Positions 1 to 31,744 of a DNA stretch of 64,000 bases are shown here, piece after piece. The position numbers and the translations under genes were made by a program. The stretch is from Eunapius fragilis (Eukaryota; Porifera; Demospongiae; Spongillida; Spongillidae): contig OY811987.1 of NCBI GenBank assembly GCA_963681505.1, forward strand, positions 5,128,978 through 5,192,977. Reading direction: 5' to 3'. The notes under the pieces are model-generated. The model did no database searches and was not told the origin of the DNA. It saw nothing but the letters and a program-made list of their open reading frames with translations. Numbering within the stretch: the first letter of the stretch is position 1; each line of letters opens with the position of its first letter.

Positions 1-294
1 CTCAAGTTCCAACCCCCCAAAATCATAAAGGATTGCGCATAAAATAGTTCCCGTTAAAATGATTTTAATCGTGTTATCACTTCAGGAAATACCCCTACAT
101 GGTTATGAAACATGGTGCACAGGCACATTCACACTTATGGAGATATGTAGGTTTTAAAACGAGCCATTCTGTTTTTGATAGAGACAGGGGGCAGAGGGGT
201 ACTTTGTGGTAAATAATCATTCATGGATATGGAAAATATAATAATGGCTTTGGTGCAATGTGTTAACTTCATTTTGATCAATATTGATTAAAAC

Positions 295-388
295 TAATAG
301 AGCGTTAGTCAAATAGAGCCCGAAACCAAGTGATCTAGCCATGGGCAGTTTGAAACTCATTTAATAGCGGGCGGAGGAACGAACCGGT
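295..388. other. Indel between the two Delta-block copies
   Basis: About 95 bases are present here and absent from the equivalent place in the other copy (near 14145). The flanks, ending in GATTAAAAC and resuming at AGCATTTATTAAATTGG, are the same in both. No coding potential or terminal repeats are evident. Bases 1-2080 around it hold no recognisable gene, only the shared downstream flank with a G run (968-991) and a C run (1389-1405). Confidence 0.7.
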
Positions 389-2084
389 AAGCATTTATTA
401 AATTGGTTTTAAACTTTCTTTCACTCCAAAATACGCTGACCTAGAGATCAGGGGTCCCTACAAAAGAATCTTGTCATGCATTGCCATGTGTGAAAATTTA
501 AATTGGAACAGACCAGATTTTATACTCATTGTCTCATTAGAACAGACACCCATATGTATTACATCATTTCTGTGACTGGCAGCTTTTTATGAGGCTTCAT
601 TTCCCTAGCTCCCGTGGTTGGGGCGCTGAGGGGTGGAGTGGTGCCGTGTGTGAGGTCCATGCTCTCCAAGCTTAGTCCGGCAGAGGAGCAAGGTGCATTA
701 ATTGGATATTGTTTCCCATATTGAAATGACTTATCCACTGATATCCCCCCCAACACACACACACTGTACCCCACATCCCACACAGGTTTGCTGTTCTCAG
801 GTGTTGGTGTGGTGGAATCCATCTGCACGTTGTGTGCCTCTGCCCTGTACAATGCACTGTTTCCTGTTACTCAAAGGGTTACACCTGGGTTCTGCTTTGC
901 CATCATGGCCATGGTGCTTATCATACCATGCACACTTACTGTGTAAGGCCAACCCTGTACACAGAAGTGGGGGGGGGGGGGGGGGGGGGGGTGGGAGTGG
1001 TTAGTGGCTATGGAAGCGCTGTAGGTTCTCCCGTTGCAGAAGCTTTGAAATTTATGTGCATGATTGCAGTGTGACCTTAACCATGTGTCCATAGTCATAA
1101 AGCAAAGAGCGGTCTGGTTGTGTTATGCACGAAGGAAAATAAGTGGGAGTGGATGTAGCAGGGACTAGACACCATTGTATATTCTTTGGGATATGTAGTT
1201 TTACCACAGTACCATATCGATACGACCCCCTTCTTTGTTTTAATGTAGAGATTATATGTGCATGTTTTTAAAAAGTATAAGCTTTCATCCATCGCAGTAC
1301 CCATTTGAAGAAGCCTCTGCTATACAAGTGAATGTATATTGAATAAAACGTGGTCTAGATATGTCTCTGTAACTACGTTGTGTCTCTAAACCCCCCCCCC
1401 CCCCTTCCCCCCTAAATCCATGTTTGGAGCATGTGTTTGGTTGCCACTAGATGGGCATGTGCACATGTATGTGTGTAGGTGTCTTGAATAGTACAAGTTG
1501 ACAAACCTGATAAACGTGTGTGTACAGTGGCATGCACTGTGCAGTCTTTGCTGACATGTGCCACACTGACGTTGCCGCATCAAATACAATACTTTCCCAT
1601 TGTAGCATTCTTCACTGCCACCAGAAGATGCCCGCGGGCAATGCTGCTTCTTTGTCCCATTCATCTGACGAGGCAAAACCACTTCTCAATAAGCTATGAT
1701 ACCAGTACATCTGTACATGTTTGGTTTTTATATGTGTAAATATTTTTCGAAGATTCATAATGGTCCAAAGCCTAGTGTACTTACTAGCTTTCAATGTTAG
1801 CATATAAAAATGGCACCACGAAATACCAGTAGAAATAGATATAGCTTAGAACTAAGGGAGACTGTAGATTATTGTTGTTCAGCTGGTTGATAGTTCTGCA
1901 ATTATCAATGGCTTTTAAAGTTCACTGCAAATAGGTGTACAACATATTTCAGGGAAATAATAAGGAATTTGCCAGTTCTAGTGTGTTTGAAGGCAGCTGT
2001 TGTAGAGCCTTGAAAACCTTATCAATTGAGAACAGAATCAAGACTGGCAAGCAGGAAGCAAACCATTGATTGTGAAACTAAATA

Positions 2085-2090
2085 TTTATT
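2085..2090 (-). promoter_or_regulatory. Polyadenylation signal AATAAA, Delta copy A
   Basis: AATAAA on the minus strand about 225 bases after the Delta stop codon. The same signal is present after the stop of copy B. Confidence 0.5.
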
Positions 2091-2313
2091 GAATGAATGG
2101 CCTAAGTCAGTTCTCTTTGAAGGTAGTTACATACATTGGACCAAGTTGACTACAATCAGTTCACATGACCACACACCATGGTATATAGTTAGCACATGCA
2201 GAACTTCAGCTAAGGGATATAGTGGAGAGTACATGCACAGCAATGCTGCATATAACATTTAAAAGTTGTACAAGTTTTGCTTAATGCGTGGAGTTGAACG
2301 TAGCGATGGTGGG

Positions 2314-4037
2314 CTAAGCCTTTTGGAAGGACAGCTTCATGCTGCCTTCATCTCCAGCATCATGTCCTTCTGCCTCCTTCCTGTGTTGTTGAGGTAAGGG
2401 GACGCCATCTTCAATTGTGCAGTACACCCCGTCCTCAGTGGATGCAAGACCAAGGGGTGCAGAGCTGAGAACAGCATTCCAGTACTGCGGTGGCTGTTCA
2501 CTGTGGTGCACATCATGACCTGGAGCGCTGCTATCCACGGGGCCATGTGTGGGGCCCAGACCATAGAGTGGATTGTGAATCGGAAGGGTACCCTGCATGG
2601 GAATATCTGAGGCATGCAATGGAAGAGAGGAGTGCATATTTGAGTGATCACGGCAGACTACATGTACAATTTGATGGGTTTTTTTTTTCATTGATGAAGG
2701 CAAATTAAAAAAAGTTACAATATTTGTGAAGTAAAGAAAATTGGCTTGTCGGGTATTAAATTTAATAACTGCAAGTTGATACACCTGTTTTATCAAACTT
2801 GCAATAACTTACCACTAGGATAAGTCAATAACCAGTTTGGGCTTAAAAATTGACATGATAAAAAATCATTCACGGAATTTGTCATAATTTTAACTTCACT
2901 AAAGTGTCTCGATTGTTTTAAATGTCGGCATGGTTTTTAAGTTCACTAAAGCATGTTAGAAATATTAGATACATGTGGCATCCCCATCTGGCCCTAACGC
3001 CACTTCATAATAACCACAGTCGCTTACTGTAAGATCTCAGATCCCTCTGCCTCTTCACACGGAGTAAGCAGACGATTCCCACAGCAATTAATATCACTGT
3101 TGCTACAATAACAGCCATGAGGGCCGCACCCACATGAAGTGATACTGAGGCGAGCTTCCACTCTGCTACTGTAGGCTGTGATGCTGTGGGCGTAATAGTC
3201 AACATACCCATGCAATGCATCACAGAGAGGCATGTTGTACACGTATTATTGTATCCGAAACCGTGCGGTGGGGGGTGGAGCCTCTGCTATCAACCAAATT
3301 GCTAGCAGTATTGGCAAATGTCATGCCCTTGTCCCATTCCAATGTATTCTGTGTCCCATTCCAACACACACACATTGCCACTGAAGTTCTTCCCCCCCAC
3401 CAGCTCACCATCATCAACAATATTTAATCAGTACCGTGTACTGCGTTGGAACACACGATTCCAACACCGGGCCGTTTTGAACAACTGGTGGTACTGAAAC
3501 AGAAATAAGGCTTTGGGGTTTAGGGGGTGGAGCTGAAGATTCGTTCCCCTAGCTACTTCGCCCAACTTTTTACCCATGTCCAAATCCACCACCTGGGCTT
3601 TTTTAAGATTAATAAAAATGCTCTTTCATTGTTGCCATGTTGAGTGCATTCATACTACGAACTCATTCTAACCATCTGAGTCATTTGCCACTAACACAAA
3701 CAGGTCGTATTACCTCACTGTACCCGGCCCTGGATTGAATATGTACCCCTGGCATGGGGGGAAACCATACCAATCTCCACTCCATTAGACCCATGACACC
3801 TTCATTGCATACGTTCAACCTTCCATCTCTTACATTCATCCTCCCAGGCTCCACCCCACGGGGTCTGGTGGTAAACCTCACTGTGCGTGGTACTTGTTTC
3901 GCTGGCACACACTACACTGGTCTCGCACTGCGTGCCCTTGTATCCCACTGGGCAGATACAAATGTATCCATCCCCCTGCAGTTGAAGGTGGTGGGGGGGG
4001 GGGGGGGTTGAGTTGGGTGAGGATGGGAAAGAAATGT

Positions 4038-4091
<54 letters not shown>

Positions 4092-6749
4092 CCACATATT
4101 GTCACTACTGAACACGTTATATTTTCCAAATGTTCGGCTATCTTCTAGTGTGCAAGTTTATTAGCTCACCCTTATACATGCCCCTAGCCGTTCGTTACTG
4201 AAGCACAGCAGGGCTTGCAAAATCTCACGCTTACCACATTGACGTAAGTACCGCCATGAAAGCATATATCCAATTCACGCACATCACAGAAAGCACCACC
4301 AAAACCATCCGAACAGCTGCAGTAGAAACCGCTGATCGCAGTGCCACCAACGCAAGTCCCTCCATTGTGGCAAGGGTTAGGGTTGCAGTCACCCCTGTCT
4401 GTCTCGCAGTGCTCTCCAGTGAATCCATTCGGACACCGGCACAGGTAGGAGCCCACGTTGTCAACACATTCACCCCGGTTCTGGCACACCACACCCACAC
4501 AGCCATCAATTGCTGAGGTGCAGTCCGGACCAGTGAACCCAGCAGGACATGGGCAGCCGGGACTCTTTCCCTTGGAAGGGGGGGGGGTGTGGGGGGGGGG
4601 GGTGATGGCCAATGTTGCATCTACATGACATGCACCTACATAAGTATGCAGAGATGTCTTCTACGTCACTCAGTGTGTTGACAGATGCCTGTTATCCATT
4701 ACTTATTTATAAAGGCATTTGACTATATTGATGTACTGAGGCGTAAACCACATGCACTGCCACACATACACACACACCCAAATGCACACATGTATATATG
4801 CACATGTACACGTGCACACACGTGTACAAACACATGCACACACTCACATGTACACACATGCACACACATGTGCACACGTATTCATGCTCACACGCGTAAT
4901 AAATTGGCTGCCTTGTTGTTTTTAAGCACAAAAACATTGTGCACCAGCGTGTTGCAATGGTGTCCACCTGCCGAACAAACATACCAGACAGGCTCCTCCA
5001 TTAGTGTCATTAGTGCACGGTGCAGAGAGGCACGTGTCGGGGTTATCCATGATCTCACACTGTGACCCTGTCCATCCAGGGGAACACGTACACTGATACA
5101 TTCCAGATCCCGTGTTTGCACATGCTCCACCATGCTGGCACGGCGATTGATGGCCACACACGTCATGATCAAGGTCACGGCACAGAGGACCGGAGTACCC
5201 AGGATCGCATAGGCATTGCTCTGGAGTGTTGCAGTGCCCATGGGCTGAGAGGGAAATATCAGTACAGACATCGCAGTTATACGAAATACTTATATAGATA
5301 TAAGGTCCTTTGCTATCAAATAAATATGCCCATTAACTTACCACACCCGGATACTGTCACGCATTGAGAACACGTCTCTCCTGACCAGCCTGCTTTGCAC
5401 CTGGAGTGGTTGGCCAGGCGCTGTCATACATGCATATACACATGCAGCGAGCCCACACACATACACACATATATGTATACCTGCACTCGTTAGGTAAGTC
5501 ACAGTAGCCTCCAATCAGGCTGCAGTTTGAGCTACAGACGGCTGCAAGCAATGAATACATTGGGGGCGGTTGCCAAAACTTATGTGCAAATATATACAAG
5601 TTTCGTCTTCCCATCCTTTGATCCATGTTCTCATGCAGGTTGACTAACTAGTAAGGGGCAATACAGATTTAAGCAATTCCACCCTGGAAATAGATCTTTA
5701 TCCAAGCATGCATGGGCGATACTTGTTATCGTTAATGGAAAAGTTAGAACGCACACTCACGCGTTATGCAACTTGTTGTCTCATTCTCGTATCCAGGTGA
5801 GCACACTTTGCTCCCAGAGGGGTCACACGTGTAGTGACCTGTGGCGTCGTCGTGACGGATGCAATACTCGTCGCAGGTATTACCGTAGTAGTTGGCGTCG
5901 CACGTGAGCGAGTATCTGAGCGTCATGCTGGCGGACCCGGAACTCCCGAGCTGTTGCACGTCGCTCGGACCTGAGTTACCGCTGGGGGCAAGTGCCGCGT
6001 TCACGATGATTCTGTCGATCAGGTCGTTCGAACCAATCGTGTCATAGTCACTGATTCGTATAAGCAGCTGAAACCCACCGCCCTATACGAGCAGACCACG
6101 GCCATGCATGCACATGCAAAGGAATGACAAACAAACAAAAAAAAAATTGAATGCAACTTGGCCTATTGGCATTATTAAACTCACAGTCCACGATGTTCCG
6201 GTGAAAACCAGTGGATTAGGAACGTCCTCCGTGATGTGCCCTGGAACGTTGAACGTTATTTGGTTAGTGTCGTCAATGTACTGGTCGACCGTGCTATATT
6301 CTCCAAGGGGACACTGGTCGCTGCGCTCGTCGTAGTCCATCGGTCGCAGGCAGAACAAGAAGTAAGGATCGCATGCGGTGTGAAAGGGATCACACCATTG
6401 TCCCGTCGAGTCCAGACCATTGGGGTTATCGTATGCGATGATGGAGACTGAGAAAGTCCACGTGGCTGAGCTGAGAGTCTGCAAGCAAGGTATTAAAACA
6501 GTAAGCCTATATTGAGCTGTAGGCCGAATGCTTTATCTTTATATTACATGCGTTCAATCTAACATTACTCGGCGCTTTTACGCACGCAAGTACGGCATGT
6601 GTTGAAACTTTTAGCGCCGTCGCGCACCGCTGCCAAGCACGCTGGTCCTGTTGAGTACTTACTACTAGCGAGGAAGCCCAGCAAGCAGCCAGCATGACTG
6701 TGGTAAAGCCCACATTGACATACACGAGGGAAGAACTCCTTTCGATCAT
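2314..6749 (-). CDS. Delta-like Notch ligand, copy A (10 exons)
   Basis: A membrane ligand for Notch receptors in cell-cell signalling. Exons in gene order: 6663-6749, 6185-6478, 5761-6067, 5481-5541, 5342-5400, 4985-5244, 4235-4570, 3882-3975, 3028-3183, 2314-2606. All junctions are GT-AG, phases agree, and the sum is 1947 bases (648 residues plus stop). Exon 1 is a signal peptide (MIERSSSLVYV..., 29 residues). Exon 2 is the MNNL domain with its Cys pattern. Exon 3 holds the DSL domain (CDANYYGNTCDEYC, then GHYTC and GYENETTSC). Exons 4-8 give about seven EGF repeats, one with NGGTCVGG and one with DNVGSYLCRC. Exon 9 has a Thr/Ser-rich juxtamembrane stretch, one transmembrane helix (ALMAVIVATVILIAVGIVCLL) and a basic stop-transfer. 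Exon 10 is a ~97-residue tail with NPLY. The start follows a TATA box. Splice sites were read by eye, and the exon 9 acceptor is the least certain. Confidence 0.93.
3985..4089 (+). repeat. Poly-G and (TG)n tracts in Delta intron 7
   Basis: A G run (about 3990-4008) is followed by a TG dinucleotide tract (about 4036-4088). On the coding strand this is (CA)n then poly-C, lying immediately 5' of the exon 8 acceptor and serving as its pyrimidine tract. The TG tract is clearly longer in copy B (17758-17838). A further G run at 4579-4602 abuts the exon 7 acceptor. Confidence 0.9.
4752..4900. repeat. ACACATG-rich low-complexity tract in Delta intron 6
   Basis: An irregular CA/CATG repeat fills part of the intron between Delta exons 6 and 7. 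It generates long spurious Cys/His-rich reading frames on both strands. Copy B (18509-18655) has one extra short unit. Confidence 0.8.
5598..5700. mobile_element. Degraded copy of a foldback MITE
   Basis: The stretch AGTTTCGTCTTCCCATCC, then TTTGATCCATGTTCTCA, then ATTCCACCCTGGAAATAGATC resembles the better-preserved foldback element at 53938-54108 in order and spacing. It lies in Delta intron 3, and the same remnant is at about 19355-19456 in copy B, so the insertion predates the split of the two copies. Confidence 0.6.
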
Positions 6750-6800
6750 CAGTATATTATCCCACTGCTTCGTCTATTCATGCAACCGATTGTCAGTGAC

Positions 6801-6807
6801 TTATATA
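6801..6807 (-). promoter_or_regulatory. TATA box of Delta copy A
   Basis: On the minus strand GGGTATATAAG lies about 52 bases upstream of the ATG at 6749, implying a 5' UTR of roughly 20-30 bases. Upstream, 6829-6872 carries two TTACGTAA octamers in inverted arrangement, and 6860-6895 has overlapping CGGCCG inverted repeats. All are identical or nearly so in copy B. Confidence 0.6.
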
Positions 6808-7146
6808 CCCGTATAGCTTTGGCCGATTATAGTTACGTAACCTTTGGCCCGGTCGGTTACGTAATCGGCCGTCCGGCCGTCGGTTAGACGGCCGCTTATG
6901 TAACACGTATAGTGCGTATAATGCCAGTCCGTTACGACGTAGCCGATGTCATAGGGAATATGGTCCGGGGCAATTCTTCCTTTCTAGGGAATACGGACGG
7001 TCCGTCCATTCTAGGGTCCGGGGATCGGAGGTGGATCCATTGTTTTAGAGCGCACTTGCATTGAATTCATAACCAGCATGGAATTCTTTATTGCTGGTGC
7101 TTACTAGATAAACTCGTCAAAATATGCTCCATCCTCCCTCCAATTT

Positions 7147-7176
7147 TCCAATCCTCCCCCCCCCCCCCCCCCCCCC
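7147..7176 (+). repeat. Poly-C run (~30)
   Basis: An uninterrupted C homopolymer near the right edge of the shared block, with an equivalent of similar length at 20906-20929. The region 6900-7190 upstream of Delta holds no other recognisable feature. Confidence 0.9.
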
Positions 7177-7312
7177 ACCTTCTACCCCCGCCTAATTCCC
7201 TGATCGCGTCGTTGTAACCGACAAGTAATTGTTAATCTACCCCAACGTAATGAAATCCGTTCAGTTTATCCACAGAGAAATAGATTCAAATAATGAACTT
7301 CGTAGCTCTATC

Positions 7313-7334
7313 GAGAGTTACGTTAGTAACTCTC
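7313..7334 (+). repeat. 5' stem-loop of element A
   Basis: A perfect 9-bp stem GAGAGTTAC / GTAACTCTC with loop GTTA, two bases inside the element end and followed by ATATAGGA. Element B has a stem of the same length and loop size at the same place but with a different sequence. Confidence 0.85.
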
Positions 7335-7355
7335 ATATAGGATTTGACCCCGATT

Positions 7356-7457
7356 ATGAATGTCATTAAAAAAACGCGACCCGCTTCTAACAAGACTCCC
7401 GACGAACGGATGGCTTACCTTGTTGTCGTCGTCGTACAAGAAGGTAACAACAAGTAG
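7356..7457 (+). pseudogene. MNVIKK-family ORF, interrupted, element A
   Basis: The frame opens MNVIKKTRPASNK and ends at TAG (7455-7457), codon 34. It aligns without gaps to the intact 79-codon ORF of element B: 19 codons to the shared Arg, then the same number to SQ-x-x-V...ENK. The TAG stands where element B has CAG (Gln). After the stop the same frame continues with FRVCLMSQNRVVVENK, matching FCVVFVSQDGVLLENK in B. A further indel shifts the C-terminus. Function unknown; no family recognised. Confidence 0.6.
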
Positions 7458-8121
7458 TTTCGTGTTTGTTTGATGTCACAGAACCGCGTGGTTGTAGAGA
7501 ACAAAACAATTTTCGAAACTCGTACCCAGTCCCACGTATTTCTCGTTCTTCTTCTTGTTCTTGTTCTTGACCACGCATAACTCGGGATAGGAATACTTTT
7601 AAGAAATGAAAATCACACCAATGGCTTCAGAATTCGTTGGCATTCTCGCTTCTGTGGTCAAAACGTCTCGAGGCTACATGACATATATCGGTGGTTGTGT
7701 TAGCAAATCACGTATAGTTAAGCTTACTGCACTGACAAGACTCGGATAGGTCCTACTTCGCTCTTTATACGAAGTACTAGCAGTATACATCATGTAATCA
7801 AATGTGTACGGTCTGGGCACTACACGTAGTGGTGGTGATTATGTATTTTTAACAACGTGCACGTGCGTACTATAATCGTTCTTGTTATTCGCTCGAAAAT
7901 ATCGAGCAGAGCCTGAAAAGAAACGGACCTCTCGACGCGCAAGGTATCTAGATGCGATTAGTAGACTGTAGGAAGGGGGGGGGGGGGGGGGGGGGGGGGG
8001 GAGGGTGCTGTCTGCTTCAGTCTGGTCCGATACAAAATGCGTTCGTGGGTTCGATCGCGCTGGGGCGACAATTAATAATCTCTCTTCTATACTTTTCGGC
8101 CGCCCCTTAAAGCCCCCTCAG

Positions 8122-8232
8122 ATCCTGAAAAGGAACGGACCTCTCAACGTGCAAGGTATCGAGCAGATCCTGAAAAAAGACAGCGATATTGCCATAGTCC
8201 TGAACGTGCATCTCGCTCGGCGAAAGAGTTAA
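8122..8232 (+). CDS. Possible terminal exon in element A
   Basis: An acceptor-like CCCCCTCAG precedes 36 codons beginning ILKRNGPLNVQGIEQILKKD and ending LNVHLARRKS before TAA. AATAAA follows at 8323. A second, disrupted version of the first half (SLKRNGPLDAQGI, then a stop) is at about 7905-7957, so this exon was partly duplicated, with a poly-G tract between the copies. Family not recognised; expression is not shown. Confidence 0.35.
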   Translation: MLKRNGPLNVQGIEQILKKDSDIAIVLNVHLARRKS

Positions 8233-8339
8233 GGTCACTCAAAGGTATGTCGTACCTTTACAACCTCCCTCTCATATCAAGATGGATTACTTAACATGCT
8301 ATACGGCCCATAATCGGGTATGAATAAAAATCAATGAAA

Positions 8340-8630
8340 CAAGTAAATAAAAAACATTCTCTATGAGAAAGTTGGTGGCATATAGGATTTGAAGGCAATG
8401 GTGGTGTAAAAAGGAAGGAAACAAGGGTCTAATAATAAGGGAAAATGGAATAGTCCTATATTTAGCACATTTCTATATGTAGGATATAGTATGTTGTTCG
8501 TGTGCTAAATATAGGACTATTCCATTTTCCCTTATTATTAGACCCTTGTTTCCTTCCTTTTTACACCACCATTGCCTTCAAATCCTATATGCCACCAACT
8601 TTCTCATAGAGAATGTTTTTTATTTACTTG
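8340..8630. repeat. Terminal palindrome of element A
   Basis: Inverted arms of roughly 130 bases, starting CAAGTAAATAAAAAAC and ending with its complement at the element terminus. The loop near 8475-8505 is short. Arm mismatches are few. It is homologous to the terminal palindrome of element B, with differences that are mirrored in both arms. Confidence 0.9.
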
Positions 8631-8672
8631 TATATATATAGCTTTCTCAATCCGGCATAGGTCTTTATAGTT

Positions 8673-8872
8673 NNNNNNNNNNNNNNNNNNNNNNNNNNNN
8701 NNNNNNNNNNNNNNNNNNNNNNNNNNNNNNNNNNNNNNNNNNNNNNNNNNNNNNNNNNNNNNNNNNNNNNNNNNNNNNNNNNNNNNNNNNNNNNNNNNNN
8801 NNNNNNNNNNNNNNNNNNNNNNNNNNNNNNNNNNNNNNNNNNNNNNNNNNNNNNNNNNNNNNNNNNNNNNNN
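8673..8872. other. Assembly gap (200 N)
   Basis: Exactly 200 N, the same length as the gap at 31545-31744, which suggests a fixed-size scaffold join of unknown real distance. It separates the left flank shared with 23092-23133 from the PP1 gene. Confidence 0.98.
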
Positions 8873-13850: not shown

Positions 13851-16060
13851 ACTTAAGTTCCAACCCCTCAAAATCATAAAGGATTGCGCATAAAATAGTT
13901 CCCGTTAAAATGATTTTAATCGTGTTATCACTTCAGGAAATACCCCTACATGGTTATGAAACATGGTGCACAGGCACATTCACACTTATGGAGATATGTA
14001 GGTTTTAAAACGAGCCATTCTGTTTTTGATAGAGACAGGGGGCTGAGGGGTACTTTGTGGTAAATAATCATTCATGGATATGGAAAATATAATAATGGCT
14101 TTGGTGCAATGTGTTAACTTCATTTTGATCAATATTGATTAAAACAAAGCATTTATTAAATTGGTTTTAAACTTTCTTTCACTCCAAAATACGCTGACCT
14201 AGAGATCAGGGGTCCCTACAAAAGAATCTTTTCATGCATTGCCATGTGTGAAAATTTAAATTGGAACAGACCAGTTTTTATACTCATTGTCTCATTAGAA
14301 CAGACACCCATATGTATTACATCATTTCTGTGACTGGCAGCTTTTTATGAGGCTTCATTTCCCTAGCTCCCGTGGTTGGAGCGCTGAGGGGTGGAGTGGT
14401 GCCGTGTGTGAGGTCCATGCTCTCCAAGCTTAGTCCGGCAGAGGAGCAAGGTGCATTAATTGGATATTGTTTCCCATATTGAAATGACTTATCCACTGAT
14501 ATCCCCCCCCCCAACACACACACACACTGTACCCCACATCCCACACAGGTTTGCTGTTCTCAGGTGTTGGTGTGGTGGAATCCATCTGCACGTTGTGTGC
14601 CTCTGCCCTGTACAATGCACTGTTTCCTGTTACTCAAAGGGTTACACCTGGGTTCTGCTTTGCCATCATGGCCATGGTGCTTATCATACCATGCACACTT
14701 ACTGTGTAAGGCCAACCCTGTACACAGCAGTGGGGGGGGGGGGGGGGGGAGTGGTTAGTGGCTATGGAAACGCTGTAGGTTCTCCCATTGCAGAAGCTTT
14801 GAAATTTATGTGCATGATTGCAGTGTGACCTTAACCATGTGTCCATAGTCATAAAGCAAAGAGCGGTCTGGTTGTGTTATGCACGAAGGAAAATAAGTGG
14901 GAATGGATGTAGCAGGGACTAGACACTATTGTATATTCTTTGGGATATGTAGTTTTACCACAGTACCATATCGATACGACCCCTTCTTTGTTTTAATGTA
15001 GAGATTATATGTGCATGTTTTTAAAAAGTATAAGCTTTCATCCATCGCAGTACCCATTTGAAGAAGCCTCTGCTATACAAGTGAATGTATATTGAATAAA
15101 ACATGGTCTAGATATGTCTCTGTAACTACGTTGTGTCTCTAAATCCCCCCCCTCCCCCTAAATCCATGTTGTTTGGATCATGTGTTTGGTTGCCACTAGA
15201 TGGGCACGTGCACATGTATGTGTGTAGGTGTCTTGAATAGTACAAGTTGACAAACCTGATAAACGTGTGTGTACAGTGGCATGTGTACTGTGCAGTCTTT
15301 GCTGACATGTGCCACACTGACGTTGCCGCATCAAATACAATACTTTCCCATTGTAGCATTCTTCACTGCCACCAGAAGATGCCCGCGGGCAATGCTGCTT
15401 CTTTGTCCCATTCATCTGACGAGGCAAAACCACTTCTCAATAAGCTATGATACCAGTACATCTGTACATGTTTGGTTTTTGTATGTGTAAATATTTTTCG
15501 CAGATTCATAATGGTCCAAAGCCTAGTGTACTTACTAGCATTCAATGTTAGCATATAAAAATGGCACCACGAAATACCAGTAGAAATAGATATAGCTTAG
15601 AACTAAGGGAGACTGTAGATTATTGTTGTTCAGATGGTTGATAGTTCTGCAATTATCAATGGCTTTTAAAGTTTACCGCAAATAGGTGTACAACATATTT
15701 CAGGGAAATAATAAGGAATTTGCCAGTTCTAGTATGTTTGAAGGCAGCTGTTGTAGAGCCTTGAAAACCTTATCAATTGAGAACAGAATCAAGACTGACA
15801 AGCAGGAAGCAAACCATTGATTGTAAAAATAGAAACTAAATATTTATTGAATGAATGGCCTAAGTCAGTTCTCTTTGAAGGTAGTTACATACATTGGACC
15901 AAGTTGACTACAATCAGTTCACATGACCACACACCATGGTATATAGTTAGCACATGCAGAACTTCAGCTAAGGGATATAGTGGAGAGTACATGCACAGCA
16001 ATGCTGCATATAACATTTAAAATTTGCTTAAAGCGTGGAGTTGAACGTAGCGATGGTGGG

Positions 16061-17758
16061 CTAAGCCTTTTGGAAGGACAGCTTCATGCTGCCTTCATCT
16101 CCAGCATCATGTCCTTCTGCCTCCTTCCTGTGTTGAGGTAAGGGGATGCCATCTTCAATTGTGCAGTACACCCCGTCCTCAGTGGATGCAAGACCAAGGG
16201 GTGCAGAGCTGAGAACAGCATTCCAGTACTGCGGTGGCTGTTCACTGTGGTGCACATCATGACCTGGAGCGCTGCTATCCACGGGGCCATGTGTGGGGCC
16301 CAGACCATAGAGTGGATTGTGAATCGGAAGGGTACCCTGCATGGGAATATCTGAGGCATGCAATGGAAGAGGAGTGCATATTTGAGTGATCACGGCAGAC
16401 TACATGTACAATTTGATGGTTTTTTTTCATTGATGAAGGCAAATTTAAAAAGTTACAATATTTGTGAAGTAAAGAAAATTGGCTTGTCGGGTATTAAATT
16501 TAATAACTGCAAGTTGATACACCTTTTTTATCAAACTTGCAATAACTTACCACTAGGATAGATCAATAACCAGTTAATTGACATGATAAAAATTAATTCA
16601 CGGAATTTGTCATAATTTTAACTTCACTAAAGTGTCTCGATTGTTTTAAATGTCGGCATGGTTTATAAGTTCACTAAAACATGTTAGAAATATTAGATAC
16701 ATGTGGCATGCCCTAACGCCACTTCATGATAACCACAGTTGCTTACTGTAAGATCTCTGATCCCTCTGCCTCTTCACACGGAGTAAGCAGACGATTCCCA
16801 CAGCAATTAATATCACTGTTGCTACAATAACAGCCATGAGGGCCGCACCCACATGAAGTGATACTGAGGCGAGCTTCCACTCTGCTACTGTAGGCTGTGA
16901 TGCTGTGGGCGTAATAGTCAACATACCCATGCAATGCATCACAGAGAGGCATGTTGTACACGTATTATTGTATCCGAAACCGTGGGGTGGGGGGTGGAGC
17001 CTCTGCTATCAACCAAATTGCTAGCAGTATTGGCAAATGTCATGCCCTTGTCCCATTCCAATGTATTCTGTGTCCCATTCCAACACACACACACATTGCA
17101 ACTGAAGTTCTTCCCCCCCACCAGCTCACCATCATTAACAATATTTAATCAGTACTGTGTACTGCGTTGGAACACACGATTCCAACACCGGGCCGTTTTG
17201 AACAACTGGTGGTACTGAAACAGAAATAAGGCTTTGGGGTTTAGGGGGTGGAGCTGAAGATTCGTTCCCCTAGCTACTTCGCACCCATGTCCAAATCCAC
17301 CACCTGGGCTTTTTTTTTTTTTAAGATTAATAAAAATGCTCTTTCATTGTTGCCATGTTGAGTGCATTCATACTACGAACTCATTCTAACCATCTGAGTC
17401 ATTTGCCACTAACACAAACAGGTCGTATTACCTCACTGTACCCGGCCCTGGATTGAATATGTACCCCTGGCATGGGGGGAAACCATACCAATGTCCACTT
17501 CATTAGACCCATGACACCTTCATTGCATACGTTCAACCTTCCATCTCTTACATTCATCCTCCCAGGCTCCACCCCACGGGGTCTGGTGGTAAACCTCACT
17601 GTGCGTGGTACTTGTTTCGCTGGCACGCACAACACTGGTCTCGCACTGCGTGCCCTTGTATCCCGCTGGGCAGATACAAATGTATCCATCCCCCTGCAGT
17701 TGAAGGTGGTGGGGGGGGGGGGGGGGGGTTGAGTTGGGTGAGGATGGGAAAGAAATGT

Positions 17759-17840
<82 letters not shown>

Positions 17841-20499
17841 CCACATATTGTCACTACTGAACACGTTATATTTTCCAAATGTTCGGCTATCTTCTAGTGT
17901 GCAAGTTTATTAGCTCACCCTTATACATGCCCCTAGCCGTTCGTTACTGAAGCACAGCAGGGCTTGCAAAATCTCACGCTTACCACATTGACGTAAGTAC
18001 CGCCATGAAAGCATATATCCAATTCACGCACATCACAGAAAGCACCACCAAAACCATCCGAACAGCTGCAGTAGAAACCGCTGATCGCAGTGCCACCAAC
18101 GCAAGTCCCTCCATTGTGGCAAGGGTTAGGGTGGCAGTCACCCCTGTCTGTCTCGCAGTGCTCTCCAGTGAATCCATTCGGACACCGGCACAGGTAGGAG
18201 CCCACGTTGTCAACACATTCACCCCGGTTCTGGCACACCACACCCACACAGCCATCAATCGCTGAGGTGCAGTCCGGACCAGTGAACCCAGCAGGACATG
18301 GGCAGCCGGGACTCTTTCCCTTGGAAGGGGGGGGGGGGGGGGGGGGGGGTGATGGCCAATGTTGCATCTACATGACATGCACCTACATAAGTATGCAGAG
18401 ATGTCTTCTACGTCACTCAGTGTGTTGACAGATGCCTGTTATCCATTACTTTTTTTTAAAGGCATTTGACTATATTGATGTACTGAGGCGTAAACCACAT
18501 GCACTGCCACACATACACACACACCCAAATGCACACATGTATATATGCACATGTACACGTGCACACACGTGTACAAACACATGCACACACTCACATGTAC
18601 ACACATGCACACACATGCACACACATGTGCACACGTATTCATGCTCACACGCGTAATAAATTGGCTGCCTTGTTGTTTTTAAGCACAAAAACATTGTGCA
18701 CCAGCGTGTTGCAATGGTGTCCACCTGCCGAACAAACATACCAGACAGGCTCCTCCATTAGTGTCATTAGTGCACGGTGCAGAGAGGCACGTGTCGGGGT
18801 TATCCATGATCTCACACTGTGACCCTGTCCATCCAGGGGAACACGTACACTGATACATTCCAGATCCCGTGTTTGCACATGCTCCACCATGCTGGCACGG
18901 CGATTGATGGCCACACACGTCATGATCAAGGTCACGGCACAGAGGACCGGAGTACCCAGGATCGCATAGGCATTGCTCTGGAGTGTTGCAGTGCCCATGG
19001 GCTGAGAGGGAAATATCAGTACAGACATCGCAGTTATACGAAATACTTATATAGATATAAGGTCCTTTGCTATCAAATAAATATGCCCATTAACTTACCA
19101 CACCCGGATACTGTCACGCATTGAGAACACGTCTCTCCTGACCAGCCTGCTTTGCACCTGGAGTGGTTGGCCACGCGCTGTCATACATGCATATACACAT
19201 GCAGCGAGCCCACACACATACACACATATATGTATACCTGCACTCGTTAGGTAAGTCACAGTAGCCTCCAATCAGGCTGCAGTTTGAGCTACAGACGGCT
19301 GCAAGCAATGAATACATTGGGGGCGGTTGACAAAACTTATGTGCAAATATATACAAGTTTCGTCTTCCCATCCTTTGATCCATGTTCTCATGCAGGTTGA
19401 CTAACTAGTAAGGGCCAATACAGATTTAAGCAATTCCACCCTGGAAATAGATCTTTATCCGAGCATGCATGGGTGCTAGCGTTAATGGAAAAGTTAGAAC
19501 GCACACTCACGCGTTATGCAACTTGTTGTCTCATTCTCGTATCCAGGTGAGCACACTTTGCTCCCAGAGGGGTCACACGTGTAGTGACCTGTGGCGTCGT
19601 CGTGACGGATGCAATACTCGTCGCAGGTATTACCGTAGTAGTTGGCGTCGCACGTGAGCGAGTATCTGAGCGTCATGCTGGCGGACCCAAAACTCCCGAG
19701 CTGTTGCACGTCGCTCGGACCTGAGTTACCGCTGGGGGCAAGTGCCGCGTTCACGATGATTCTGTCGATCAGGTCGTTCGAACCAATCGTGTCATAGTCA
19801 CTGATTCGTATAAGCAGCTGAAACCCACCGCCCTATACGAGCAGACCACGGCCATGCATGCACATGCAAAGGAATGACAAACAAACAAAAAAAAAATTGA
19901 ATGCAACTTGGCCTATTGGCATTATTAAACTCACAGTCCACGATGTTCCGGTGAAAACCAGTGGATTAGGAACGTCCTCCGAGATGTGCCCTGGAACGTT
20001 GAACGTTATTTGGTTAGTGTCGTCAATGTACTGGTCGACCGTGCTATATTCTCCAAGGGGACACTGGTCGCTGCGCTCGTCGTAGTCCATCGGTCGCAGG
20101 CAGAACAAGAAGTAAGGATCGCATGCGGTGTGAAAGGGATCACACCATTGTCCCGTCGAGTCCAGACCATTGGGGTTATCGTATGCGATGATGGAGACTG
20201 AGAAAGTCCACGTGGCTGAGCTGAGAGTCTGCAAGCAAGGTATTAAAACAGTAAGCCTATATTGTGCTGTAGGCCGAATGCTTTATCTTTATATTACATG
20301 CGTTCAATCTAACATTACTCGGCGCTTTTACGCACGCAAGTACGGCATGTGTTGAAACTTTTAGCGCCGTCGCGCACCGCTGCCAAGCACGCTGGTCCTG
20401 TTGAGTACTTACTACTAGCGAGGAAGCCCAGCAAGCAGCCAGCATGACTGTGGTAAAGCCCACATTGACATACACGAGGGAAGAACTCCTTTCGATCAT
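16061..20499 (-). CDS. Delta-like Notch ligand, copy B (10 exons)
   Basis: Same structure as the gene at 2314-6749. Exons in gene order: 20413-20499, 19935-20228, 19511-19817, 19238-19298, 19099-19157, 18742-19001, 17984-18319, 17600-17693, 16747-16902, 16061-16350. All frames stay open. Protein-level differences from copy A seen by eye: T to S in ITEDV (MNNL), S to F in GSSGSA before DSL, N to H in GDCNPN, V to A in CPVGY, C to R in VVCASE, L to Q in RDLRSY, one Gln fewer in PLPQQH and V to I nearby. A 2-bp indel just upstream of exon 10 would shift the frame if an upstream TAG acceptor were used, so the CAG acceptor at 16350 (2606 in copy A) is the one that keeps both copies intact. Confidence 0.93.
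17709..17838 (+). repeat. Poly-G and expanded (TG)n in Delta copy B intron 7
   Basis: G run at about 17709-17728 and a TG tract of about 40 units at 17758-17838, longer than the equivalent in copy A. This is the main length difference inside the gene. A pure G run at 18328-18349 abuts the exon 7 acceptor. Confidence 0.9.
19355..19456. mobile_element. Degraded foldback MITE, copy B
   Basis: Counterpart of 5598-5700 in the other Delta intron 3, and related to 53938-54108. Confidence 0.55.
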
Positions 20500-20550
20500 C
20501 AGTATATTATCCCACTGCTTCGTCTATTCATGCAACCGATTGTCAGTGAC

Positions 20551-20557
20551 TTATATA
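20551..20557 (-). promoter_or_regulatory. TATA box of Delta copy B
   Basis: Same GGGTATATAAG sequence and spacing to the ATG (20499) as in copy A. Confidence 0.6.
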
Positions 20558-20948
20558 CCCGTATAGCTTTGGCCGATTATAATTACGTAACCTTTGGCCC
20601 GGTCGGTTACGTAATCGGCCGTCCGGCCGTCGGTTAGACGGCCGCTTATGTAACACGTATAGTGCGTATAATGCCAGTCCGTTACGACGTAGCCGATGTC
20701 ATAGGGAATATGGTCCGGGGCAATTCTTCCTTTCTAGGGAAAACGGACGATCCATCCATTCTAGGGTCCGGGGATCGGAGGTAGATCCACTGTTTTAGAG
20801 CGCACTTGCATTGAATTCATAACCAGCATGGAATTCTTTATTGCTGGTGCTTACTAGATAAACTCGTCAAAATATGCTCCATCCTCCCTCCAATTTTCCA
20901 ATCCTCCCCCCCCCCCCCCCCCCCCCCACCTTCTACCCCCGCCTAATC

Positions 20949-20970
20949 GGAACCTACGCGAGTAGGTTCC
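20949..20970 (+). repeat. 5' stem-loop of element B
   Basis: Stem GGAACCTAC / GTAGGTTCC with loop GCGA, starting two bases inside the element and followed by ATATAGGA. Geometry is identical to element A, but the paired bases have changed together. Confidence 0.85.
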
Positions 20971-20991
20971 ATATAGGAATCCAACAGTATC

Positions 20992-21231
20992 ATGAATGTC
21001 ATTAAAAAAATGTCACTCACGTCTAGCGGGACATTTAAGAATCGGGTCACTTCGCTCTTAGTGGCATTCGAGCGATATAAAAAAGGACAACAGTTCTGCG
21101 TTGTATTTGTGTCACAAGACGGTGTACTTTTAGAGAACAAAAATACTCGTCCCCATCGTCCGTACCCAGTCCCACCTAAAATTTCTCCTCCGTCGGCTTC
21201 TTCTTCTTCTTCTTCCTTCCGGAGAGTATAA
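20992..21231 (+). CDS. Small MNVIKK-family protein of element B
   Basis: Seventy-nine codons: MNVIKKMSLTSSG..., then VTSLLVAFERYKKGQQFCVV, SQDGVLLENK, a Pro-rich stretch, a run of Ser (S6) and FRRV before TAA. It aligns codon for codon over the first ~50 positions with the interrupted ORF of element A at roughly 40% identity, a sign of past protein-level constraint. It may be a first exon rather than a whole protein. No family is recognised, and no HUH nuclease, helicase, integrase or RT motif is seen. Confidence 0.5.
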   Translation: MNVIKKMSLTSSGTFKNRVTSLLVAFERYKKGQQFCVVFVSQDGVLLENKNTRPHRPYPVPPKISPPSASSSSSSFRRV

Positions 21232-22371
21232 CTCACGACAGGAACGTTTGTAAAGCACGCCAAGTGTACCAATCGCTTCAGGATGCGTCCGCAGGTTATC
21301 TTCGGGGGTCTGTTAGACGCCTAACTGTTCGAGCAATTAACTAAAGCGAATAGTACCTCATTTGGTATTCGGTTAAAAATACCCAATTACATCAGCTAGC
21401 TATTTTTAAATGCAATAATAGCCACGTGTCGTGGGCGTGATTCAAATTCTTAATATTCCCGCACGCTGTAGAAGAGGTATACGCACTGAATCCAAGAGCC
21501 TTTTCGGGTCCCTACGGCTCCATGTATAAATGTCCAACATAATGCCAAATGGTTGAGAAACGGAATGGAGCAGCGATAACGTTATAGGAAGGCTCCTGAC
21601 GAATATTCAAGGTATCATTTTCTGCATGACGCCTGTGCGTTACTCTCAACTCTTATCATTCGTTACGCAGCTTGAAATGAAAGCCAAAACTACCATACAC
21701 GTAAGTACCCGACACTATCGCATATAATTGTTTGACCGAATTGATTTCTATACTATAGCTTCTTATATAGCATAACTTTCGAATTCTGTCGGTGGAACTA
21801 CATACGCGATCAGATACTACGATATACAGTCTACAGCAGATAATGTGAAGCAAGTGGCTCCAATTAGAATGTGTCTCCCCCACACCACCGCCCTTACAGA
21901 AAAAAAACCCGGCAACAACTAGCCACTCGTACACCTACAGATATGCCAAACGAGTGCAATACAAGACACGACAAGGTGTCAAGCGCGCTACTGAAAGGAC
22001 CATCAAAGCGACCACCCCGAAGGTGCGTTAATGAATGTTGGATCTGGACATAAATTATAGCATGTATAGTGTATCGCTAAAATATTTTATGCAACAGTTA
22101 CAGCGGAAGATATTGCATCTCTCTCCGTGCTGTTGTTTGAAATATGTGCACGCTGTTCGCTGACAACAATTTCGTAATAATGTTAATGTGTATTGTGGTG
22201 CATAATTTATATCTAATAGTATCAAAGTTGCTTATGACAACGTATTGTGGTTTATCTGATAATAGCGTGAGATCAGTGGGTACATGTAATCTTTGTCTGA
22301 TGTATTATATGGCTTCACTTGCCAGTGGAGGATTTGTTTTAACTAATGGTTGTTTAAATCACCTGTTTCAG

Positions 22372-22523
22372 GTCCAGGTCCAGGAGTGGTTCCATGTCCA
22401 GCTGCAGGATTAGCTCCACCTGCTCTACCTGCTATATATCCTGGATATACAGAAGTATATCCTGGTCCAGAATATACAGCAGTATATCCTATACAAGATG
22501 ACATGCTCCTGGGTTATAAATGA
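22372..22523 (+). CDS. Possible terminal exon of element B, Pro/Tyr-rich
   Basis: A strong acceptor (CACCTGTTTCAG) precedes a frame reading GPGPGVVPCPAAGLAPPALP, then repeated Tyr-Pro motifs (AIYPGYTEVYPGPEY, AVYPIQDDM) and LLGYK before TGA. The periodic YP repeats come from an imperfect TATATCCTGG-type DNA repeat. AATAAA follows 87 bases later. Its 5' partner exon is not certain; the MNVIKK ORF is a candidate. Function unknown. Confidence 0.4.
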
Positions 22524-22695
22524 AATACTTGTACTTATTGTTTAAATAGTAATACTGTGTTTTTAATGGTACACCCACACCTCAAAAAATTGCATGGCCA
22601 CGAGATTCTAATAAAACTGTCATTTGACATTCTTGCTACATGGTTACTTTTCAAGAACTAAATACAATACTAAATCTACCAAAAAATGTAGGAAA

Positions 22696-22978
22696 CAAGT
22701 GATAAAAACATTCTCTATGCGAGAAGGTTGGTGGTATATAGGAATCAAAGGCGGTGGTGGTGTAAAAAGCAAGGGAACAAGGATTGTGATTGAAAAGGAA
22801 AATTGAAATAGACCTATATTAGCACACACAGTTAGACATGACGACATGCTGCTAATATAGGTCTATTTCTTTTTTCCTTTTCAATCACAATCCTTGTTCC
22901 CTTGCTTTTTACACCACCACCGCCTTTGATTCCTATATACCACCAACCTTCTCGCATAGAGAATGTTTTTATCACTTG
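22696..22978. repeat. Terminal palindrome of element B
   Basis: Arms of about 125 bases starting CAAGTGATAAAAACATTCTC, with a loop near 22828-22848. Homologous to 8340-8630: shared blocks include the CATTCTCTATG start, the GTTGGTGG step and the GGTGGTGTAAAAA step. Many positions differ between the two elements, yet each element's own arms still pair. Confidence 0.9.
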
Positions 22979-23133
22979 TTCCCTGATCGCGTCGTTGTAA
23001 CCGACAAGTAATTGTTAATCTACCCCAACGTAATGAAATCCGTTCAGTTTATCCACAGAGAAATAGATTCAAATGATGAACTTCGTAGCTCTATATATAT
23101 ATAGCTTTCTCAATCCGGCATAGGTCTTTATAG
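22979..23133. repeat. Continuation of the duplicated Delta-block flank
   Basis: 22979-23096 matches 7193-7310, and 23092-23133 matches 8631-8672. The two pieces are contiguous here and are separated by element A in the other copy. This shows that both elements are insertions and that similarity runs at least to the N gap. Confidence 0.95.
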
Positions 23134-23499
23134 TTGACAGCTAGAACAGATGGGTTAAAGTGTATTGAAGAAGAGAACAGTTGTGGTTGATGATTAACCG
23201 GTTATAGTTATCCAGGCAGCGTGTTGTGAACCTATATAAAAGGAATGTAATGAATCGCCTCAACCACCTGTTTGTCTGTATAGAGAATTTCTGTTAAGTG
23301 ACACTAACCTTCCCCATGCTGTGTTATTTTTGTCCGCAACAAAAAAATATATACACTCAGATAAACAGTACGTGATCATGAGAAATGTATACAGTTAAAT
23401 TGAATATTAGAGGTGGTTCTACTATTCTTGGTCACCTATTAGATGGAAACTTGTAACTTTTGATCTTCCTAAGATGCCAAGGGACAACCATACATCATG

Positions 23500-31544: not shown

Positions 31545-31744
31545 NNNNNNNNNNNNNNNNNNNNNNNNNNNNNNNNNNNNNNNNNNNNNNNNNNNNNNNN
31601 NNNNNNNNNNNNNNNNNNNNNNNNNNNNNNNNNNNNNNNNNNNNNNNNNNNNNNNNNNNNNNNNNNNNNNNNNNNNNNNNNNNNNNNNNNNNNNNNNNNN
31701 NNNNNNNNNNNNNNNNNNNNNNNNNNNNNNNNNNNNNNNNNNNN
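31545..31744. other. Assembly gap (200 N)
   Basis: Exactly 200 N, preceded by a C run (31525-31544) and followed at once by a minisatellite; both would stop an assembler. Confidence 0.98.

Follow-up and report, generated by a model that had tools for sequence, protein, structure and literature searches.

The window analysed here is a stretch of 64,000 nucleotides from the sponge Eunapius fragilis (assembly GCA_963681505.1, contig OY811987.1, positions 5,128,978 to 5,192,977). It holds two related insertions, element A at 7311..8630 (1,320 bp) and element B at 20947..22978 (2,032 bp), which we interpret as non-autonomous Helitrons; both lie on the plus strand, as do all features below unless stated otherwise. 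Each begins with TC, ends in CTTG and sits between an A and a T. A hairpin with a 9-bp stem and a 4-nt loop lies directly behind the terminal TC of A (7313..7334), a hairpin of the same dimensions is found in B (20949..20970), and the sequence ATATAGGA beside the stem is common to both elements. Subterminal repeats located 23-24 nt from the 5' end (CATATAGGATTTGA, 14 nt, 7334..7347 in A; ATATAGGAATC, 11 nt, 20971..20981 in B) recur as inverted copies on the minus strand at 8578..8591, 39 nt from the 3' end of A, and at 22928..22938, 40 nt from that of B. Reading frames starting with MNVIKK follow in A (7356..7457, 33 codons and a stop) and in B (20992..21231, 79 codons and a stop). Toward the 3' end each element has an AATAAA (8323-8328 and 22610-22615) and closes with a large palindrome, of 291 bp with arms of about 130 nt in A (8340..8630) and of 283 bp in B (22696..22978). 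Within the right arm there is a short subterminal hairpin, which ends 13 nt before the 3' terminus in A (8597..8617) and 11 nt before it in B (22945..22967). An earlier note on this DNA had proposed such a plan, from the TC, stem-loop, ATATAGGA and MNVIKK frame to an AATAAA and a palindrome of about 285 bp ending in CTTG, and all of these parts were found in both elements; the spliced-looking last exon that it also listed is plausible in B only.

Between the shared parts the two elements diverge, being alignable solely at A 24-64, 159-258 and 1016-1310, and no reading frame longer than 90 codons is present in either. B nevertheless retains recognizable sequence: positions 992-1233 of the element (21938..22179 in the window) and 1279-1412 are 83% and 71% identical, respectively, to sequence upstream of Rep in L069, a Rep-bearing Helitron from this genome. 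The description of the bodies as mostly unrelated thus applies to A compared with B, but B keeps Helitron-derived internal sequence. Divergence and deletion therefore suffice to explain the differing bodies, and the exchange of cargo that had been suggested for them was dropped as unnecessary.

A and B lie in a duplicated stretch that extends approximately from window position 1 to 8670 and from 13852 to 23140, with blocks 13.72-13.85 kb apart and 95-100% identical in the listed blocks. When the flanks of either element are joined, the resulting 24-mer occurs exactly once in the window, at 23082..23105 for A (in the second duplicated copy) and at 7184..7207 for B (in the first). Neither element therefore has a target duplication, and in the simplest account both inserted between A and T, as first proposed. 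Each element is present in just one copy of the duplicated stretch, so both most likely inserted after the duplication. At 8673-8872 and 31545-31744 the window reads N for exactly 200 positions, probably because of assembly gaps; the first such run begins 42 bp past A.

As single strands, the 5' hairpins fold at -8.0 (A) and -9.0 (B) kcal/mol, values equalled by 0 of 200 shuffles for either element (z about -5). The palindrome arms are 131 nt long and 100% complementary in A, and 135 nt and 98% complementary in B; the palindrome of A, the one folded, reaches -153.8 kcal/mol, whereas its shuffles average -23.2 (z -35). Less exceptional is the short hairpin in the right arm, 21-23 nt with one mismatch, which 3 of 200 shuffles match in folding energy in each element. 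The 14-nt inverted repeat of A exceeds the longest found in 500 shuffles (10), while the 11-nt repeat of B equals its longest (11) and is alone not beyond the control. Given the short hairpin at about the canonical place and the inverted subterminal repeat, the giant palindrome resembles an ordinary Helitron 3' end that has been doubled in inverted orientation.

Searches of the whole assembly (219 Mb, 24 contigs) showed that the family to which A and B belong is very abundant. Element A as a query returned at least 40 places at 95-100% identity, namely 2 at full length, 1 over 1-1204, 36 over 554, 586 or 587 to 1320 and 1 over 726-1320, with separate matches to the 5' half at 91-97%; B returned at least 38 near-full-length places at 97-100% and one more at 86%. 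Both counts are lower bounds in which the copy in the window is included. Allowing one mismatch at most, the first 19 nt of the MNVIKK frame occur at 2,027 places (2 in the control), and the pattern of A, TC, hairpin and ATATAGGA, its stems restricted to the union of the three types seen, at 1,315 (control 0). The palindrome end was found at 6,406 places (control 0), an intact palindrome counting twice; the first 100 listed sites form 34 minus-then-plus pairs 250-272 bp apart and leave 32 unpaired.

The two end signals belong together. Of 22 listed start motifs (C1:0.14-2.92 Mb), 21 have a palindrome-arm site no more than 3.5 kb downstream, compared with 3 upstream and with a random mean for downstream pairing of 1.8 (maximum 7 in 2,000 trials); for one of the 21 (1413353) the site belongs to the palindrome of a nested Helitron and not to its own. 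The ends themselves were examined in B copies (30 of the 38 B loci, with 29 distinct flank pairs). CTTG is the 3' end of the element in 30/30 rows and is followed by T in all of them, the preceding base is A in 28/30, and the first two bases are TC in 26/30, the four TT rows representing a single mutated copy that was multiplied. The two rows that lack the preceding A (L016, L033) were kept in the counts. Ten 5' ends were also sampled across 100 listed exact places of the start motif, all on C1, from the total of 2,027. Eight have TC and the hairpin, seven with 9 pairs and one with 8, and A precedes all eight; the other two (L076, L082) are 5'-truncated and depart from the simple plan, and were likewise retained in the counts. 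These thousands of end signals, respecting TC...CTTG and insertion between A and T where examined, are the further copies whose absence would have spoken against a mobile-element family.

The sampled 5' ends include a third stem type, GGAAGTTTC-GTTA-GAAACTTCC. Across the four distinct rows, five of the nine stem pairs are changed on both sides, and 97.2% of the stem cells are paired as opposed to at most 50% when the partners are slid; one row (L080) breaks a stem pair. By the number of further pair types the stems do not exceed the control, since 106 of 500 shuffles reach the observed value. These four distinct rows suggest that the 5' stem is kept as a structure rather than as a sequence.

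Helitron_like_N is matched 91 times in the genome, and many of the matches lie in intact frames some 2,000 aa long. Ends were examined for 13 of these, comprising nine copies, six of them by the 3' end alone, and four chimeras; each of the nine copies has a palindrome-type 3' end, at 5.3-7.0 kb past the start of Rep. The autonomous Helitron is 10.52 kb long, and its 1,977-aa frame, read in pieces, combines a Rep (HUH, two tyrosines) and a PIF1-type helicase in one ORF together with an OTU domain. Helitron_like_N scores 94.7 bits in this frame, which also matches the Helraiser structure 7lcc (E 9.5e-6). A separate proline-rich frame lies near the 3' end (L072:487-1032), and its GYTDVYPGP resembles, by eye, the GYTEVYPGP of the B last exon; the element then ends in the same kind of palindrome with CTTG (L072:1198-1480).

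Two autonomous copies on C1, at 1402421-1412947 (10,527 bp) and 1774145-1784665 (10,521 bp), run from A, TC, stem and ATATAGGA through Rep to the palindrome end, their 5' modules having been placed by a degenerate pattern match. The first (Rep at C1:1405918) lies inside a B copy on the minus strand; from the coordinates of B we reasoned that it would start near C1:1402435, and the module was found 14 bp off, at C1:1402421. The start of the second (C1:1777642), predicted from the offset of the first before the pattern search, was matched exactly. A third copy, at C1:11850697-11862680, has modules at both 11850697 and 11851168, and for it the common offset failed. The module at 11851168 (L070) most plausibly belongs to an element nested in the copy, 471 bp from where the copy starts; the copy itself would measure 10,522 bp if the nested element is 1,462 bp long, a figure derived from the common offset and hence non-independent. 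A start of this copy (C1:11855656) at the A-type end of L070, giving an A 5' end with a B 3' end, was rejected in view of the further module at 11850697 and of a 215-aa upstream frame common to all three C1 copies.

A and B share both end signals with this autonomous Helitron of near-constant length, and the 83% internal match ties B to a related Rep-bearing element (L069). We therefore regard A and B, with high confidence, as internally deleted, non-autonomous Helitrons that are most likely mobilized in trans by the 10.52-kb element. The earlier note had likened the insertion to that of HUH-type elements (Helitron or Replitron-like) and had called for longer relatives encoding Rep and helicase; Rep-PIF1-OTU Helitrons with the same two ends are what the genome contains. 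Its remark that no transposase is present accordingly describes A and B themselves and fails for the family. Two internally deleted copies (C3:10423984 and C1:14415883) have the region upstream of Rep joined to the autonomous 3' region with a 4 bp overlap, and would represent a stage between the autonomous and the B-like elements.

The termini, first thought to fit no class, bear the hallmarks of Helitrons. As in canonical Helitrons (Helitron1; Helraiser/Helibat), the 5' end is TC, insertion is between A and T without duplication and the protein is Rep-PIF1. Canonical Helitrons also have a short hairpin of 16-20 nt, placed about 11 nt before the 3' terminus; its counterpart here measures 21-23 nt and ends 11-13 nt before the terminus. 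In contrast to the canonical 3' CTRR, the sponge elements end in CTTG in 30/30 B rows; such ends are nevertheless in print, for Pleurotus HELPO2 and for Helraiser truncation insertions, with maize also mentioned, in the available text of two papers (PMC4289320, PMC4778049). Canonical Helitrons lack terminal inverted repeats, whereas A and B have repeats of 14 and 11 nt; the sponge family differs further by its 283-291-bp 3' palindrome, 5' hairpin and OTU domain. Replitrons, which had been suggested for comparison, are likewise HUH-type; their defining feature is a Y1 HUH transposase without a helicase, whereas the partner found here has Rep and PIF1.

We give about an even chance to the view that the lineage stands on the Helitron2 and proto-Helentron side rather than with canonical Helitrons. 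Terminal inverted repeats and two hairpins are described as Helitron2/Helentron features, with T-rich insertion sites, in the portions of the literature available to us. The asymmetric terminal inverted repeat and the hairpins at both termini of Helitron2 have their like here, but Helitron2 inserts between TTTT and T or C, or at TT, and the sponge elements between A and T. The repeats of Helitron2, Helentrons and HINEs lie 2-4 nt from the 5' end, compared with 23-24 nt here, where the giant palindrome is an additional feature. At the other end the distances are alike, since the available text on HINEs places their subterminal inverted repeats 38-60 bp from the 3' end (PMC4067079) and those of the sponge elements lie at 39-40 nt. 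In the roughly 1,820 of 1,977 codons scanned against Pfam, no endonuclease domain was detected, in contrast to the C-terminal endonuclease of Helentrons. This absence has a parallel in the proto-Helentron of Phytophthora infestans, described in the same partial source as a Rep-Hel element without endonuclease, with Helitron-like ends and insertion between A and T (PMC4067079). That element differs in its 5' TT, 3' CTAG and SET protein, and a giant palindrome goes unmentioned in the available part of its description (PMC4067079).

The Rep motifs in the autonomous copy are QMRGAPHYH and YQMHKCTNYC, and the lineage form is QxRG-A-PHYH with F/Y-x-K, unlike a second Helitron lineage of the same genome (L039-L043), which has long open frames and a canonical-looking Rep with QKRGLPHAH and MIHGPCG. 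Between the G and P of motif 2 the lineage has A at 21/21 loci (L048-L068), and AP is found in 71 of 73 motif-matching relatives among 120 proteins; this is neither the S of the printed Helentron signature nor the L of the canonical Helitron RGLPHxH. Among the best Rep relatives are an Ephydatia muelleri protein (82%) and a eukprot 'Em' entry (83%), as suits a freshwater sponge host. On these sequence features we place the lineage among the Helitrons, as a non-canonical Rep lineage of mixed character.

Differences between palindromes are mirrored in the two arms. With the arms of four distinct palindromes trimmed to 128 nt before alignment, the differences between A and the autonomous copy (34/34), A and L065 (37/37) and the autonomous copy and L065 (9/9) are all found in both arms, as are most of those between A and B (35/37), B and L065 (12/14) and B and the autonomous copy (3/5). 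Using 135-nt arms that reach the loop, the mirrored share is 31 of 37-38 for A and B, 30 of 35-36 for A and the autonomous copy and 3/4 for B and the autonomous copy. Among 22 distinct palindromes, collected by a pattern demanding both arm ends, the arms differ at 0-3 positions over the first 125 nt in 20; an ungapped count gives 50 and 77 differences for the other two (L028 and L023), probably reflecting indels. The arms thus appear to evolve together across families, and this would fit correction inside a folded single strand, as in a rolling-circle intermediate. The mirrored arms could also stem from repeated new inverted duplications, an alternative that we consider possible and distinctly less probable than such correction. 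It would yield equally perfect arms, and the loop of A does differ from those of the other palindromes, but B, the autonomous copy and L065 have, by eye, similar loops in the same orientation, and changes that are few and mostly mirrored (9/9, 12/14 and 3/5) suit gradual change better. Flip-flop of the loop is expected where a hairpin is resolved as in parvoviruses. It was considered and set aside, as the match among B copies runs through the loop in a single orientation, and L065, judged by eye on its sense strand, has the orientation of B.

In four chimeras (L029-L032), B copies with TT in place of TC lie inside a Helitron Rep frame with a common 5' flank, and four different 3' flanks follow straight after the B CTTG, none of them continuing into Rep. 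One chimera (L061) is identical to an uninterrupted frame (L057) at 2,425/2,425 bases up to the junction, and the L057 frame runs on across the site between A and T at which the junction lies. The palindrome of the nested element therefore forms the 3' limit of a larger Helitron in these four cases, as read from the 3' flanks. In the simplest reading, a B element landed in a Helitron and lost its TC, and the Helitron then moved with its own start and the B palindrome as terminator.

An A-T site inside B, between window positions 21415 and 21416, is a target hot spot. In other B copies it is occupied by nested family members at C6:9042829, C6:9045328, C7:1855853 and C1:1402421, with nesting three deep on C6, and C8:2762569 is an exact match to the nested-junction pattern, by pattern match alone. 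The third autonomous copy was hit 471 bp from its start, compared with 469 in B.

The chimeras also bear on whether A and B could form a separate new HUH class, with an unrecognised transposase of its own and the Rep Helitrons as mere neighbours or nest hosts. Although inverted subterminal repeats and a giant palindrome are absent from the canonical Helitron description, and A and B lack any frame above 90 codons, we hold this to be very improbable, given that two Rep-Hel elements (10,527 and 10,521 bp) share both ends and a third fits, that B contains Helitron sequence and that the chimeras join a Helitron body to a B end; a new class without transposase was rejected on the same Rep-Hel copies. 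Least probable of all is that the palindromes are fold-back elements or MITEs in their own right that landed close to the ends. Fold-back elements typically do have palindromes this large, but in 30/30 B rows the element closes with the CTTG at the outer palindrome edge, and 21/22 sampled 5' motifs have a palindrome-arm site downstream.

For mobilization of A and B by the autonomous Helitron, we infer from sequence the action in trans, the contacts of Rep, the polarity of synthesis and the snapback correction, in the following order. The 5' hairpin and the ATATAGGA repeat would guide Rep to nick between the flanking A and the TC, and the strand would be unwound and copied up to the 3' palindrome. 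There the inverted ATATAGGA repeat and the short hairpin 11-13 nt from the end would signal a stop at CTTG, and the single strand would be joined into a target between A and T. The single-stranded palindrome could meanwhile snap into a duplex of about 130 bp, in which arm mismatches would be corrected in each round, and the arms may thereby stay identical. In Helraiser the short hairpin acts as a terminator that can be bypassed, according to the available text (PMC4778049).

CTTG, TC, insertion between A and T, the short hairpin and Rep-Hel are already known from Helitrons. What appears to be new is a 3' end doubled into a giant palindrome with co-evolving arms, and because of this doubled terminator we count the lineage as a new form of Helitron. 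Further novelties are the 5' hairpin with compensatory changes, the inverted subterminal repeats beside insertion between A and T, and the four chimeras in which the palindrome of a nested element ends a larger Helitron. Among the matches listed for the openly licensed literature, as judged by title and start of abstract, we found no paper on a long Helitron palindrome, and none on sponge Helitrons among those listed.

These elements address how Helitrons recognize their ends and stop. A bolder suggestion, made tentatively and rated rather doubtful, is that the palindrome is a two-way, self-repairing terminator, in which both arms are complete Helitron 3' ends and each round rewrites one arm from the other. 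If so, it would stop a rolling circle from either side and truncate Helitrons reading in, producing chimeras, and Helitron 3' ends would be sequences kept by folding and not by base-by-base selection. Young and represented by thousands of end signals in a single genome, the family offers natural, testable data on termination, the chimeras bear on the formation of new Helitron families through end capture, and the mixed features indicate that a Helitron2-like hairpin and inverted repeat can coexist with Helitron1-like insertion between A and T.

Two B copies (L023 and L024; C17:581067 and 594278) have identical 20-base flanks and lie 13.2 kb apart, perhaps through another local duplication. At L033 and L016, 5' fragments of B, of about 34 nt and about 591 bp, stand directly or nearly before a full B whose usual A is absent; such fragments are possibly products of abortive or re-initiated copying.
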